DNA of 48,274 nt from Clostridiales bacterium GWD2_32_19 (GTDB lineage Bacteria; Bacillota; Clostridia; Lachnospirales; UBA12420), in assembly GCA_001795385.1 (NCBI GenBank), contig MGOU01000017.1, positions 1 through 48,274 of the forward strand, written 5' to 3'. A model generated the notes under the pieces. The model was not told where the DNA came from, did not search any database, and saw nothing but the letters and a program-made list of their open reading frames with translations. This document shows, piece after piece, positions 1 through 44,359 of the stretch; the stretch's first letter is position 1; every line of letters begins with the position of its first letter. The position numbers and the translations under genes are program-made.

Positions 1-2
1 CA

Positions 3-1235
3 ACAATAGCAATACCGATATTCACGAACAAAAGTGAAACATCAAAACAGATAGCACATAATGAGAATGTGAGAACACTACAAACCCAAGCGCAGGCATA
101 TCTATGGGAAGAAGGAATAGCAATGCCACAAGCAAATATAATAGATGATATGGCAACAAAAGGCTACATAAAAGAAGTACCAAACAATCCATTAGAAACA
201 GGAGCATACGTAGTAGCAGTAAGTGCAAGTGGAATAGCAACAGTAACACCGATAATAGTAGAAGTAACAGGAGAACCAGAGCCACCACCAGTAGTAGCAG
301 ATGTACCAGTAGGAAACTACATAAAATTCGGGACATATCTAAGCCAACCAATAGTATGGAGAGTAATAAACAAAGTAGACGCAGCATACCTAACAGCAAA
401 TCCAGGAAGTGGACTACATGAGGGAGACCTCATGCTATTAAGTGATAAAATAATAAGCCTAAAAGCATTTGACGCAAATGGAGAAAACCTAATAACAGAA
501 GCAGGAGGAGATACAAGTAGAGGAACATACGGAAGTAACTACTGGGATAAAAGCAGCCTAAAAGCATGGCTAAACAGTAGTGCAGGGGATGGAGTAGTAG
601 ATTGGCTCGGGTACTTTTCACCAACCGCAGCAAGAGTGTTTGGTAGCTACAATCCATATGACGCAGAAAAAGGCTTCTTGGCAGAGGGAAACTTTAACGC
701 AACAGAAAGAAGTAAAATAATGCCGGTAACCCATAAAACAATACTAGCAGATACAGATGCAGCAACAGCCGCCAAAACAGGAGGAACAGCAAGTCATACA
801 TATACAACAACAAATGCAAGTGCAGCAGTAGAAAACTATGCAAGTGCAAACTATAAAGACACAACAGAAAGTGTATTTTTACTAGGAATAAAAGAACTAA
901 ATGACTATGTATATAGTAATGGAGCGCTAGGAGATGGAGTAGCATGGACAAAAGCATATCCAACGAGTGAAGCAGTAACACAAAGTACAGCAGGAGGCTA
1001 TACAGATGCAGGATTAAATACAGGAGCGTATTGGTATTATTGGTTAAGGGAGTCTTATGCGCCTTATTCGTACAGCGTCCGCGTCGTGTTCGCGGATGGC
1101 TTGGTGTTCAACAACGGCGCCTATGGCGGTACCAGGGGTGTTAGACCCGCTTTGTTTTTAAGTCCGTCGGGTATGACACTAGATGGAGCGAGCGGAGCTA
1201 GTGTGGGGGAAGCAAATACGATAACTTGGGAATAA
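3..1235 (+). CDS. Pilin-like protein with C-terminal DUF6273/C-type-lectin-like domain, copy 1 (5' end outside window)
   Basis: The reading frame is open from the left edge, so the start lies outside. The first residues in frame (TIAIPIFTNKSETSKQIAHN) match the end of the type IV pilin helix of the intact paralogue at 42045, with near-identical DNA over about 75 nt. The rest is a DUF6273-type domain: conserved G-S-N-Y-W-D, K-A-W-L-N-S, E-R-S-K-I, V-F-L-L-G and a terminal G-V-R-P-A-L. I infer a prepilin-derived surface protein displaying a C-type-lectin-like fold. Most of the gene uses A-ending codons (GCA, GTA, ATA, ACA), but about positions 1059-1160 are near 60% GC by hand count, with C- and G-ending codons. 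That block looks like the variable region of a diversity-generating retroelement target. A hairpin follows the stop. The domain family is recognised by pattern only, without a database search. Confidence 0.8.
   Translation, partial: TIAIPIFTNKSETSKQIAHNENVRTLQTQAQAYLWEEGIAMPQANIIDDMATKGYIKEVPNNPLETGAYVVAVSASGIATVTPIIVEVTGEPEPPPVVADVPVGNYIKFGTYLSQPIVWRVINKVDAAYLTANPGSGLHEGDLMLLSDKIISLKAFDANGENLITEAGGDTSRGTYGSNYWDKSSLKAWLNSSAGDGVVDWLGYFSPTAARVFGSYNPYDAEKGFLAEGNFNATERSKIMPVTHKTILADTDAATAAKTGGTASHTYTTTNASAAVENYASANYKDTTESVFLLGIKELNDYVYSNGALGDGVAWTKAYPTSEAVTQSTAGGYTDAGLNTGAYWYYWLRESYAPYSYSVRVVFADGLVFNNGAYGGTRGVRPALFLSPSGMTLDGASGASVGEANTITWE
1059..1154 (+). other. Putative retroelement-type variable region, copy 1
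   Basis: This block of 32 codons is GC-rich in an AT-rich gene. Aligned with positions 43197-43286 of the paralogue, the residues S-Y-x-V-R-x-V-x-x-D-G-x-V-x-x-x-x-A-Y-x-G-x-x-G-V-R-P-A-L are shared. The x positions are codons such as gtc/aat, ttc/aac, ggc/tac and acc/tac, which differ mainly at codon positions 1 and 2 and mostly keep a C or G third base. Adenine-directed mutagenesis of AAC-type template codons would give this pattern. Some synonymous differences in the conserved codons mean that the copies do not share one recent template. Confidence 0.55.
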
Positions 1236-40638: not shown

Positions 40639-40790
40639 TATTCCACAACCTTTCTAATATAGTATAGTTAATATTATATTATTTTATAATATATGCAAAG
40701 GATTGTCAATTAGAAATAAAAACAAACTTGAAAATTTGCAAAAAATAATGCAAAACGTAATCTACCACTTAGAAGGGGAGACGAATTTAA

Positions 40791-41101
40791 ATGTCAAATA
40801 TATTAATTCCGTTTTTATTAACTACAATTGCAGGATTAGCAACAGGGATAGGGGGCCTTATAGTATTTTTGCTAAACATACAAATAAAAAATTATTTTCA
40901 ACAATGCTTGGATTTTCAGCAGGAGTAATAATATATATTTCATTTATGGAAATGATACAGCAATCAAAAGAAATGTTAATCAAAAGTTTTGGAAAGACAG
41001 ATGGATATACTATGTGTGTTGTGTTCTTTTTTGTTGGAATACTAATAATAGGTGTTATAAATATAAATGGGCTAGCACGTAGGCATAGCCCCTACGATTA
41101 A
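40791..41101 (+). pseudogene. ZupT-type ZIP metal transporter, frameshifted and truncated
   Basis: ATG 40791, with AGAAGGGGAG upstream, encodes L-L-T-T-I-A-G-L-A-T-G-I-G-G-L-I-V-F. The next frame then continues F-A-K-H-T-N-K-K and L-G-F-S-A-G-V-I-I-Y-I-S-F-M-E-M, which are ZupT hallmarks. The two halves would join if the run of five T residues at 40866-40870 had six. Only about 100 of some 265 residues remain. Homology ends near 41068, where a CGTAGG/CCTACG hairpin begins. The metal-binding second half is missing, so the product cannot transport. The homopolymer shift alone could be a sequencing error, but the missing 3' half cannot. Confidence 0.8.
41078..41096. repeat. Small hairpin at the ZupT breakpoint
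   Basis: CGTAGG/CCTACG inverted repeat with a 7-nt loop, where ZupT similarity stops. It resembles the short palindromes dispersed in clostridial genomes and marks the boundary of the accessory segment. Confidence 0.45.
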
Positions 41102-41220
41102 AGCAAACTGCAATGACATGCTAGGGTTTAAATCAAGGGTGCCTGAACTGTAACAAACCTTAAAATAAAAAACTCAAAACACTTGAAAAAAGAAAAATAA
41201 AATGATATTATGTATAAAAA

Positions 41221-41328
41221 GCGACCAATCAAACGATAGGCACAGTAACAGAAGAAGTAATAAAGAAGTATATAGCAGAACAAGAGGAAGAATCAAGGAA
41301 AGACGACAAGAGTGGAGCCTCTTTGTAG
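41221..41328 (+). pseudogene. Possible C-terminal remnant of an IS200/IS605-type transposase
   Basis: In the frame starting at 41221 the 35 codons read T-I-G-T-V-T-E-E-V-I-K-K-Y-I-A-E-Q and then an acidic/basic tail to TAG. This resembles the end of TnpA (Y1) transposases, where the last helix has the form [ST]-x-E-x-I-x-x-Y-I-x-x-Q. A stop precedes it, so the catalytic part is gone. The run of hairpins directly after it supports an IS200/IS605 origin, because these elements end in palindromes. The fragment is short. Confidence 0.5.
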
Positions 41329-41492
41329 AGGCTGCCGGTAGAAGTGCTTTCGACACAGCCTTTCAGGCTAGCAAGCACAAAGACCCTTGTTAGGGTCAAT
41401 GTCAAACCACCACTTGAAGTGGTGGTTGGTGATTGCGACATCCTATGTCTAGGTTTGCACAATACACAAACCAAGTCTTAGGATGTCGCAAT
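41316..41492. repeat. Row of five hairpins (mobile-element end)
   Basis: In order: AGCCTCT/AGAGGCT (41316-41333); GTGCTT/AAGCAC enclosing AGCCT/AGGCT (41344-41378); GACCCT/AGGGTC (41382-41397); AACCACCAC/GTGGTGGTT with loop TTGAA (41405-41427); and a 26-bp arm pair with three mismatches (41432-41457 with 41467-41492). Such packed hairpins fit the right end of an IS200/IS605 element, where a guide RNA can also be encoded; no TnpB is present. Confidence 0.6.
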
Positions 41493-41602
41493 GACAGGGA
41501 GGGGGAAGATAATACTGATAAAATATATTAAATAAAAAGGGATAGTGTAGTATTTAGTACTATGAATATTTTACACTACCAATCAAACAGAGGAGAAAAA
41601 AT

Positions 41603-42016
41603 ATGGAAAAAGTTACCATACCATATGGCTGAAGCTATATAAAATGATACGGGGAAGCCCGAGTAGTAAGTTACTTCATAGTAAAAGAGCTAAAAGTAAG
41701 ACTCATAATGAGTATGTCCTATAAAGATAAAATAGTGCAGAGATGCTTGTGCGATCAAGTACTAAGCAAACTGATAAAAAACAAAGTAATATATGACAAC
41801 GTAGCAGTACAAAAAGGAAAAGGCACAGGGCTAGGAATAAAAAGAATAAAAACATTTCTAAAAGATTATTACAACAAAAATAAAACAAACAAACAAAGGA
41901 TACATATTAAAATGCGATATAGAAAAGTTTTTTTACAACATAAATCACGATATACTAAAACAACAACTATATAGATACATATCAGATAAACAAATAAAAA
42001 GCCTGTTGGGCAGCTA
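41603..42016 (+). pseudogene. Decayed reverse transcriptase, N-terminal part only
   Basis: ATG 41603 with AGAGGAG upstream opens a frame broken by two TGA codons (41630, 41645). It then reads V-K-E-L-K-V-R-L-I-M-S-M-S-Y-K-D-K-I-V-Q-R-C-L-C-D, K-V-I-Y-D-N and Q-K-G-K-G-T-G. After a frameshift near 41898 the next frame gives K-G-Y-I-L-K-C-D-I-E-K-F-F-Y-N-I-N-H-D-I-L. This is the start of a bacterial reverse transcriptase, with the first catalytic Asp (K-C-D-I-E-K-F-F). The sequence ends at TAA 42014 before the Y-x-D-D box. The wording resembles reverse transcriptases of diversity-generating retroelements in Firmicutes, but the diagnostic S-Q motif is in the missing part. It lies 29 nt upstream of pilin copy 2. 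Confidence 0.7.
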
Positions 42017-42044
42017 AATTTAATAAAAGGAGAAGTGGTGAAAA

Positions 42045-43367
42045 TTGAAAATTGAAAGTGTAAAATTGAAAGTAAAGAAAACGAAAAAGAACGGATTTAC
42101 ATTACTGGAGTTACTAGCAGTACTGGTAATACTCGCGGCGCTAGCAACAATAGCAATACCAATATTTATAAACAAAAGTGCAACATCAAAGCAGATAGCA
42201 CATAATGAAAATGTGAGAACACTGCAACAACAAGGGAATGCATATCTCTTGTCAGTAGACTCAGTGCCAGCAGAGAACACAGATATAACACAGTTAATGG
42301 TAGATAACGGATATATAAAAGAAATACCAACCAATCCATTACCAGTAGGAGAAATAGAAGCAGGAGCATATATAGTAAAAGTAGGGCCAGTAGGCAATGC
42401 AAAAGTAAACAAAGCAGTAGTAGAAGTAACAGGAATAGAGAGTGTAGTTGTAGTAGAATCACCACCAGTAACGATAGCAGAAGGAGCATATATCAAATTT
42501 GGAAACTATCTAGGTCAACCAATAATATGGAGAGTAATCAAAAAACAAGAAATAGATGCAACAAAAGCAGGGGATGAGCTACTACTACTCGCAGATAGGA
42601 TAATAACAATGAAACCATATGATGCAAAAGAACCAGGGAATGCAGACGCTGATAGATTAAATTATGGAAGTAATTACTGGGGAAATAGTAACATAAGAGA
42701 ATGGTTAAACAGTAACGCAGCAACAGTGGCATGGACAACCCAAGCACCAAATGCAGCAAATGTATACGTGAGTGGAACAGCAGTAAACCCATATGATGCA
42801 GAAGCAGGATTTCTCACAAACTTAACAGCAGAAGAAAGAGAACAGATAGTAAACGTAACACATAAAAGTATAGTATACAATACACTCGATGGAAATGATG
42901 GAGGAACAGCAGCACATGGATATACAGGTACAGGAGTGGATGAATCAGTAACAGTAGCACCAGGAGACAACTATAACACAGCATGGTATAAAAACACATC
43001 AGACACAGTATTCTTACCTAGCTTAGGAGAGTTATCAGACTATGTAGATGGAGTACTAAAACATGAAGATGAAACAACAGATTATCAAATAGCATATACA
43101 ACACAACAAGCAAGAACTCAAAGTAATTTTGCAAGTGATCCTGCAAATGATGCAACAGCATGGTATTACTGTACAAGGGACGCATTTGCAGCTATCTCGT
43201 ACAATGTTCGCAATGTCCTCACGGATGGCACGGTCAACAGCATCTACGCCTATTACGGGTACTACGGAGTTCGCCCAGCTTTGTACTTAAGCTCGTCGAG
43301 TATGACATTAGGGGCTGAGAGTGGAACGACAGCGGGAGCGGCGTACACGATAACGAGCTTCAATTAG
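42045..43367 (+). CDS. Type IV pilin-like protein with DUF6273/C-type-lectin-like domain, copy 2
   Basis: A complete 440-residue paralogue of the gene at the left edge. The prepilin leader is K-K-T-K-K-N-G-F-T-L-L-E-L-L-A-V: cleavage after Gly, Phe +1, Glu +5, then a hydrophobic helix, as required by type IV prepilin peptidase. The C-terminal ~290 residues are DUF6273-like (Y-G-S-N-Y-W-G, I-R-E-W-L-N-S-N, A-E-E-R-E-Q-I-V, V-F-L-P-S-L-G-E-L). The final segment ends in G-V-R-P-A-L-Y-L-S and is the putative variable region. AAAAGGAG precedes the start. No pilus assembly genes are in the window. A surface-displayed binding protein that can change its binding face is the working idea; the ligand is unknown. 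Confidence 0.85.
   Translation: MKIESVKLKVKKTKKNGFTLLELLAVLVILAALATIAIPIFINKSATSKQIAHNENVRTLQQQGNAYLLSVDSVPAENTDITQLMVDNGYIKEIPTNPLPVGEIEAGAYIVKVGPVGNAKVNKAVVEVTGIESVVVVESPPVTIAEGAYIKFGNYLGQPIIWRVIKKQEIDATKAGDELLLLADRIITMKPYDAKEPGNADADRLNYGSNYWGNSNIREWLNSNAATVAWTTQAPNAANVYVSGTAVNPYDAEAGFLTNLTAEEREQIVNVTHKSIVYNTLDGNDGGTAAHGYTGTGVDESVTVAPGDNYNTAWYKNTSDTVFLPSLGELSDYVDGVLKHEDETTDYQIAYTTQQARTQSNFASDPANDATAWYYCTRDAFAAISYNVRNVLTDGTVNSIYAYYGYYGVRPALYLSSSSMTLGAESGTTAGAAYTITSFN
43197..43286 (+). other. Putative retroelement-type variable region, copy 2
   Basis: Thirty codons at about 53% GC by hand count, with C-ending codons (tac, aac, gtc, atc) unlike the rest of the gene. Of 31 positions aligned with copy 1, 13 residues differ, almost all through codon positions 1 and 2, while S-Y, V-R, D-G, A-Y and G-V-R-P-A-L are kept. 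Tyr and Asn are frequent, as expected where adenines of AAC codons are replaced. Confidence 0.55.
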
Positions 43368-43402
43368 AAAAGCCCTCGATGGGCTTTTCTAATTGGAAAG
43401 AG
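43361..43402 (+). terminator. Hairpin overlapping the end of pilin copy 2
   Basis: A perfect 15-bp stem (43361-43375 with 43381-43395) with loop TCGAT; the left arm contains the stop codon. Loop, stem length and the CCC/GGG top match the hairpin after copy 1. It can act as a terminator or as a retrohoming structure. Confidence 0.65.
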
Positions 43403-43660
43403 TTTTATTTTCGGTACTAATTAGTGTGAGGAAGCTACTTTTTTAATCTTCACGCCGTAAGGCGCTGACAATACATGACTTGAATTTATGAAAAAACATG
43501 TAGATGGGACGGTTTGTACGAATATCTTAAAAGCACAAAAAAAGCGATGTCGGAATTTAATATCATATAAACTAAAAAAAATCAAGCTTTTGCTTGATTT
43601 TTTTAGTTTATATGGTAAAATTAGTAGTGAGTAGATATATAATAAACTGGGAGTGGTAAA
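43403..43660. other. Intergenic stretch without a recognised gene
   Basis: I see no gene here. It contains a small GCGCC/GGCG-type hairpin near 43452-43470 and a near-perfect palindrome at 43564-43614. Broken reading frames are present but match nothing I know. Confidence 0.5.
43564..43614. terminator. Near-perfect 23-bp palindrome
   Basis: CATATAAACTAAAAAAA-ATCAAGC pairs with its inverse (43564-43587 with 43592-43614) around a TTTT loop, with one bulged A. It can act as a terminator in either direction; the length also suits a miniature element. Confidence 0.65.
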
Positions 43661-43661
43661 A

Positions 43662-43978
43662 ATGCCTAATAAAAAAATAGAATTGATAAAAGAAAAATTA
43701 ACAGCTGATTTTAAAATAGAGAAAATAATATTATTTGGGTAACTGCAAAAGGAGAAGAAAATAAAGATTCAGATATAGATTTACTAGTGGTATGGAATGA
43801 TGAAAAAATGAAAAATAGAAGAAAATGTAAGGTTTTTTTACGAAGAAAGATGGGGCTTATAGGTACGGTCGTTGACTTACTAACTTATAATGAGGCTGAA
43901 CTAAGAGAAGCAACATCTGATGAGTCTTCGTTTACATCTAAAATAATTAAAGAAGGAGTTGTCATATATGCCAGATAG
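43662..43978 (+). pseudogene. MNT-type nucleotidyltransferase antitoxin, frameshifted
   Basis: The first frame reads K-I-E-K-I-I-L-F-G and meets TAA at 43740. The next frame continues A-K-G-E-E-N-K-D-S-D-I-D-L-L-V-V, the MNT active site. Adding one base after GGGT would give G-S-T-A-K-G and restore the frame, so a single deletion broke the gene. The rest (V-V-D-L-L-T-Y, then I-I-K-E-G-V-V-I-Y-A-R) is intact to the stop. In MntA/HepT systems this enzyme AMPylates the HEPN toxin. It overlaps the HEPN remnant by 11 nt, as such pairs often do. Confidence 0.75.
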
Positions 43979-44326
43979 TATTAATTAAAGTGGATAGAAA
44001 AGGCAAATTCTGATTTTAAATTGCTGAAAATAATTACAAAAGAAGATATAATAGGGCTTGAAGATTCAATTACATTTCATAGTAATAATATGTAGAAAAT
44101 TAATGAAAGCATATTTAGTTTATAAAGATAAAAAACTCGAAAGAATTCATAAAATAGATATCTTGTTAGAAAAATGTGCAGCATATGATAAAGAGTTTTT
44201 AAATATGAAGAAATGGCAGAAGTTTTAAATGATTATTATATAATATCAAGATATCCAGATGATATCGGTGAGAAAATAGTAAAAGAGGAAGTTCAGATGG
44301 CATATAACTATGCAAAAGAATTGTAA
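43968..44326 (+). pseudogene. HEPN-domain toxin remnant (HepT-like), multiply broken
   Basis: ATG 43968 leads to a TAA after six codons. Fragments in different frames then give W-I-E-K-A-N-S-D-F-K-L-L-K, I-T-F-H-S-N-N, K-L-M-K-A-Y-L-V-Y-K-D, R-I-H-K-I-D-I-L-L-E-K-C and Y-Y-I-I-S-R-Y-P-D-D, all in the order of a HEPN protein that pairs with MNT. At least three lesions are needed to explain it. The toxin is dead, so loss of the antitoxin could be tolerated. Confidence 0.7.
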
Positions 44327-44359
44327 AATTTATAACAGCTAAAATGGGGGTAAATTAAA

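Follow-up and report, generated by a model that had tools for sequence, protein, structure and literature searches.

Directly upstream of a pilin gene in Clostridiales bacterium GWD2_32_19 lies a broken reading frame with features of a reverse transcriptase (RT), which raises the question of whether the pilin is the abandoned target of a diversity-generating retroelement (DGR) or is still varied from elsewhere in the genome. The 48,274-nt window analysed here takes in contig C17 of this genome (G000) from end to end; the genome is a 47-contig draft, 97.6% complete. A first-pass annotation, made from the letters of the window, had taken the frame for the N-terminal part of a bacterial RT and proposed that the locus once was a self-contained diversity cassette, had lost its enzyme and left its target dependent on another copy. 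Searches across the draft and comparison with a same-genus genome point to a decayed DGR, with the pilins of G000 as orphaned targets marked by past hypermutation rather than recent overwriting (probability about 0.87).

An RT remnant and an operon leader beside a pilin gene

All peptides on which the RT assignment had been based were recovered: KVRLIMSMSYKDK and QKGKGTG share one frame, that of position 41603, and LKCDIEKFF lies in the next. The frame change falls within a short AAAC repeat whose unit number differs from that of the intact homologue described below, and, as annotated before, the frame ends ahead of a YxDD box, which is absent all the way to the pilin. Aligned with the intact same-genus RT, the region scored 132 bits, compared with a top score of 29.6 among 1000 dinucleotide shuffles. 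With its two frames joined at the frame change, it matched PHROG 1423 (reverse transcriptase; E=5e-33) and Pfam RVT_1 (33.5 bits; cut-off 29.6), and its top solved structure was 8ub7, a reverse transcriptase of 328 aa, the same length as the BPP-1 enzyme. The RT identity was thus borne out, whereas the extent first given, 41603–42016, has to be narrowed to the segment listed in Table 1, as 41603–41672 is operon leader and not RT coding.

Table 1. Features of the window on and around the two pilin loci (A and B)
Feature	Coordinates	Strand	Remarks
Pilin gene A, second DGR target of the same family	3..1235	+	5′ end cut by contig start
VR of pilin A	1053..1153	+	changed at 16/28 TR adenines and 7/73 other positions
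Dispersed repeat	41500..41580	+	about 40 copies in the genome (at least 40 across G000), 5′ of start codons
DGR operon leader remnant (ATGGAAAAA..TACCATACCAT..AAGTTAC)	41590..41679	+	68% over 103 columns, E=5e-9
RT remnant	41666..42014	+	codons about 61–179 of the 406-aa homologue; one frameshift near 41900; without YxDD
Pilin gene B, 440 aa, DGR target	42045..43367	+	PF07963 E=1e-6, PF19789 E=2e-21
VR of pilin B	43183..43282	+	C-terminal end of DUF6273
Hairpin, 4-base loop	43361..43395	+	just past the pilin B stop

The remnant retains the motif A region (CDIEKFF), but RT codons 1–60 and about 180–352 of 406 are absent from the locus and the catalytic core after motif A is gone; from about 42014, the remnant gives way to the region leading into the pilin. 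With codons missing and the frame shifted, no intact DGR-type RT with YxDD exists here and, judged by its sequence, the locus is a DGR remnant and not a working member. No relatives of the remnant were found in IMG/VR.

The same leader stands before the gene for a MutS_I-Avd accessory protein in the same-genus genome (G001) and in contig C11 of G000, and its TACCATACCAT stretch is common to C11 of G000 and C26 of G001. Since the leader remnant of the window matches the leader of the intact operon, the accessory gene, the template (TR) and most of the RT must have been deleted from this locus. Leaders of this kind carry a tandem ACCAT repeat of about 2 to 10 copies, depending on the locus (C11:15683–15745 of G000; C26 and C38 of G001). 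Ahead of the leader, the dispersed repeat occupies the place of the intact operon's promoter-like TTGACT..ATAATATG. Copies of this repeat, of about 75–80 bp (AGATAATACTGATAAAATATATTGAATATAAAGGGATAGTGTAGTATTTAGTACTATAAATATTTTACACTACC), precede many unrelated genes in a single orientation, immediately 5′ of the ribosome site, and may represent a mobile promoter or regulatory element. An Rfam search over window positions 40700–43700 gave no match.

Pilin B combines an N-terminal methylation motif with a DUF6273 domain; the prepilin motif with its hydrophobic helix scored 28.6 bits against PF07963 (cut-off 21.2). The pilin has a putative role at the cell surface. An AlphaFold model of the pilin, built from three sequences, had a mean pLDDT of 32. 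A hairpin commonly follows the variable repeat (VR) in DGRs, and the one past the pilin stop could be a terminator and/or a structure of this type. The stretch that separates the pilin from a class I tRNA synthetase gene holds a small nucleotidyltransferase-like gene with a neighbour (43664–44327), both apparently broken by stops and frame changes.

The intact homologous operon of a same-genus genome

The intact counterpart lies in Clostridiales bacterium UBA12072 (G001; record DMOI01000044.1), on contig C38. This RT, 82% identical to the remnant, has an open frame of 406 aa and a YVDD box, and is embedded in an operon ordered as leader, MutS_I-Avd-like protein, TR, RT and pilin-like target with VR, all frames being intact. 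The accessory protein (226 aa) matches MutS domain I (E=8e-14) and is Avd-like in its C-terminal part (bAvd, 34 bits, under the cut-off of 40); no relatives of it were found in IMG/VR. The TR measures 101 bp, includes 28 adenines and recurs at the 3′ end of the pilin gene—encoding 447 aa with an N-methylation motif and DUF6273—with 18 mismatches, 16 of which fall on TR adenines. By its gene content and the pattern of its repeats, this operon is a DGR.

In G001, the VR in cis and a remote VR on C15 both agree with the TR at 62/62 core non-adenine positions, for which recent overwriting from the TR would be the simplest cause. As the two pilin genes are separated by a dS of 0.47 in the rest of their length, the agreement of the remote VR argues for homing in trans. 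Mutagenic homing thus appears to proceed both in cis and in trans in this genome, where one intact master copy apparently still rewrites its own pilin and at least one remote pilin. Decayed cassettes are present as well (C26, C39, C40).

Alignment of the VRs of 15 pilin loci to the G001 TR separated two families. The one like the known TR comprises C38, C15, C40, C66 and C11 of G001 together with A, C47 and C44 of G000; the second, marked by shared and largely synonymous differences, comprises C10, C2, C46, C64 and C19 of G001 together with B and C15 of G000. Both vary mainly at TR-adenine columns (Mann–Whitney p=3e-12 and 1e-10, respectively, on 14 VRs, the gapped C44 being left out). Compared with the G001 TR alone, VR B has a weak adenine excess (10/28 adenines vs. 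13/72 other positions, p=0.055), whereas comparison with VRs of its own family yields a clear excess at adenine columns (for example against G001 C10, 15/27 vs. 7/62, p=2e-5). As the difference from the sister TR is not clearly adenine-specific, the hypermutation history of VR B is to be read from its own VR clade. In its codons, TR AAC shows up as CTC, AGC, ATC and TAC, all of which retain the C. A TR for this second family, VR B included, was found in neither G000 nor G001. Elsewhere in G000, an array of diverged direct repeats, 63–70% alike, spans C44:6900–8000.

Orphaned targets or targets served in trans

The notion of a formerly self-contained cassette gains from the intact sister operon, the adenine-specific TR/VR differences and the placement of the remnant among DGR RTs (see below). 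Loss of the enzyme, likewise, stands and can be extended: of the RT only the remnant persists, and the TR and accessory gene were lost with it. Dependence of the target on another copy, however, did not withstand the search. A full-length RT homologue elsewhere in the same genome, which the first-pass annotation had suggested looking for, was not found in the G000 assembly, and the intact one belongs to the sister genome. No intact RT of the remnant's type was found in the 97.6% complete assembly, whose RVT_1 matches besides the remnant are limited to one group II intron RT and the RT of another DGR on C33. An intact MutS_I-Avd gene was not found in the assembly either, only a stub of about 39 codons on C11. 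No TR stands near the RT remnant in the window and none of the G001 type was found in G000, where five of six matches to the G001 TR were pilin VRs and the sixth was a 14-base chance match.

The VRs themselves point the same way. Pilins A and C47 of G000 share 91% protein identity outside the VR (7.8% nucleotide difference), and their VRs differ at 8/62 non-adenine positions (13%). Recent homing from one TR would have left these positions identical, so their divergence speaks against recent homing in G000. With no intact RT, MutS_I-Avd gene or TR found and the VRs carrying ordinary non-adenine mutations, the target gives the impression of being frozen, not of being rewritten in trans.

The strongest competing explanation holds that an intact G000 cassette, overlooked by the draft assembly, continues to diversify the window pilin in trans. 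After all, the sister genome displays action in trans on a remote pilin, the G000 assembly is incomplete with contigs that break within pilin genes, and a small contig outside the bin could possibly carry such a cassette. The breaks, however, can be partly bridged: window positions 1–60 repeat exactly the final 60 bases of C11, C11 also shares 44 bases with the start of C47, and the RT sequence at the end of C45 is identical to part of C11. By virtue of these overlaps, C11 and C45 likely hold the upstream parts of pilins A and C47, each with a decayed cassette, C11 with the leader, the accessory stub and RT codons 91–113 and 313–365, C45 with a leader-like stretch and RT codons 297–349. Together with the missing RT, accessory gene and TR and the 13% non-adenine divergence, this renders a hidden cassette unlikely, and we infer that the assembly missed no intact copy.

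An even less probable source is the second DGR of G000, an Avd-type element (C33:43262–46366) whose target is a prepilin fused to an FGE-like domain. Its TR and VR differ at 22/32 adenines and 0/96 other positions (p=2e-17), a pattern that argues for recent activity. With one TAG in the RT frame and a short Avd frame, the element may be recently active and possibly just broken, unless these defects are an assembly error. That this DGR serves the window's pilins might be thought of given its presence in the same genome, its recent activity and its prepilin target; yet its TR matches the other VR, that of the FGE-like domain, and neither window pilin, and its RT and Avd frames are compromised, so that it was ruled out as a trans source. 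Further matches to the C33 TR (81–94%) occur in G001 at C58, C40 and C14; this second DGR family, too, seems to have dispersed targets, with perhaps a TR at C58.

Finally, the RT could derive from another class of element altogether. A tree of 33 RTs computed with IQ-TREE, including BPP-1 Brt, phage nd12, Toutatis, BalMu-1, group II introns and retrons, recovered the remnant and the G001 RT as sisters (100/100). All DGR RTs, including the remnant, split from the group II introns, retrons and one unclassified RT (97/99), a division that persisted when only the columns covered by the remnant were used (96/97), while the position of BPP-1 inside the DGR side was weakly supported. Placement among group II introns or retrons had been named beforehand as the outcome that would refute the DGR reading; the remnant falls with the DGR RTs instead. 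That it is a group II intron, retron or defence-associated RT fragment next to the pilin by chance is hence scarcely credible: although profile searches gave hits to group II intron RT (E=1e-7) and to a number of defence RT families, and a true group II intron RT resides on C27 of the same genome, these matches are weak cross-hits, the tree sets the remnant apart from group II introns and retrons, and its closest intact homologue belongs to a DGR with TR and VR. All three identities were ruled out by the tree.

Proposed history and comparison with known systems

Homology, the order of the cassette, the adenine-specific difference between TR and VR in the sister genome, the deletions and the non-adenine drift were all observed, and from them the history of the decayed DGR may be sketched as follows. 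The ancestral cassette would have consisted of the leader, an accessory gene fusing MutS domain I to an Avd-like part, the TR, an error-prone RT and a pilin with C-terminal DUF6273. In the intact system, reverse transcription of the TR transcript would introduce random bases at adenines, and the resulting cDNA would take the place of the VR at the pilin gene's 3′ end, altering the terminal residues of the displayed protein; this route from TR via cDNA to VR is deduced from the homology with BPP-1. Either the cassette or the pilin together with portions of the cassette would then have been copied to several loci, most copies subsequently having lost accessory gene, TR and RT by deletion while keeping the pilin reading frame. 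For the genus at large, we regard it as an evenly balanced proposition that whole DGR cassettes, target included, were copied around the genome and lost their enzyme nearly everywhere, that one master serves the pilin clients, and that loss of the master freezes the repertoire.

The two related genomes illustrate a possible origin of remotely controlled hypervariable gene families, in which the target outlives the RT, template and accessory gene that copies of its cassette discard. UBA12072 and the window's genome form a live/dead contrast in which loss of the DGR can be read from non-adenine drift, and cellular pilin-like proteins with a DUF6273 tip are added as targets of a bacterial, not a phage, DGR.

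As in the DGR of Bordetella phage BPP-1 (Avd-TR-Brt, target mtd), the RT is homologous, the TR lies between accessory gene and RT, and the VR sits at the 3′ end of the target; unlike there, a fusion of MutS_I and Avd serves as accessory protein, the gene after the RT encodes the target, a cellular prepilin carrying DUF6273, and the enzyme of the window is a wreck. MSL accessory proteins (PF01624) offer another parallel, a protein with MutS domain I encoded next to the RT of a DGR (PMC10053308), although here the C-terminal half also matches bAvd, under the curated cut-off. DUF6273, reported as a C-type lectin-like fold (PMC10743442), is a DGR target in Faecalibacterium phages and phages nd4/nd12 (PMC11792537, PMC10743442). 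In those targets, too, the VR lies at the DUF6273 C-terminus, but they are phage structural proteins, in contrast to the chromosomal pilin-like proteins described here; the closest phage RT is that of nd12 (41%). Putative pilin structures have previously been mentioned among DGR targets, and within the literature collection covered, a search for prepilins together with DGRs found no paper.

Dispersal and decay have precedents as well. In Treponema denticola, one core cassette serves several remote targets, and isolates keeping target genes without RT and TR were described as bearing remnants of lost systems (PMC4891356); here, by contrast, scraps of leader, accessory gene and RT persist beside the orphaned targets, which are pilins. 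In cyanobacteria, target paralogues are dispersed in the genome and a degraded DGR cassette has been reported (PMC7517822), which kept the RT without other features, whereas here targets persist without an RT. Remote and left-over DGR targets, MSL accessory proteins and DUF6273 targets are therefore already known; new features are the wrecks left in place next to orphaned pilins, the number of clients among the pilins and the pairing of a live with a dead genome.
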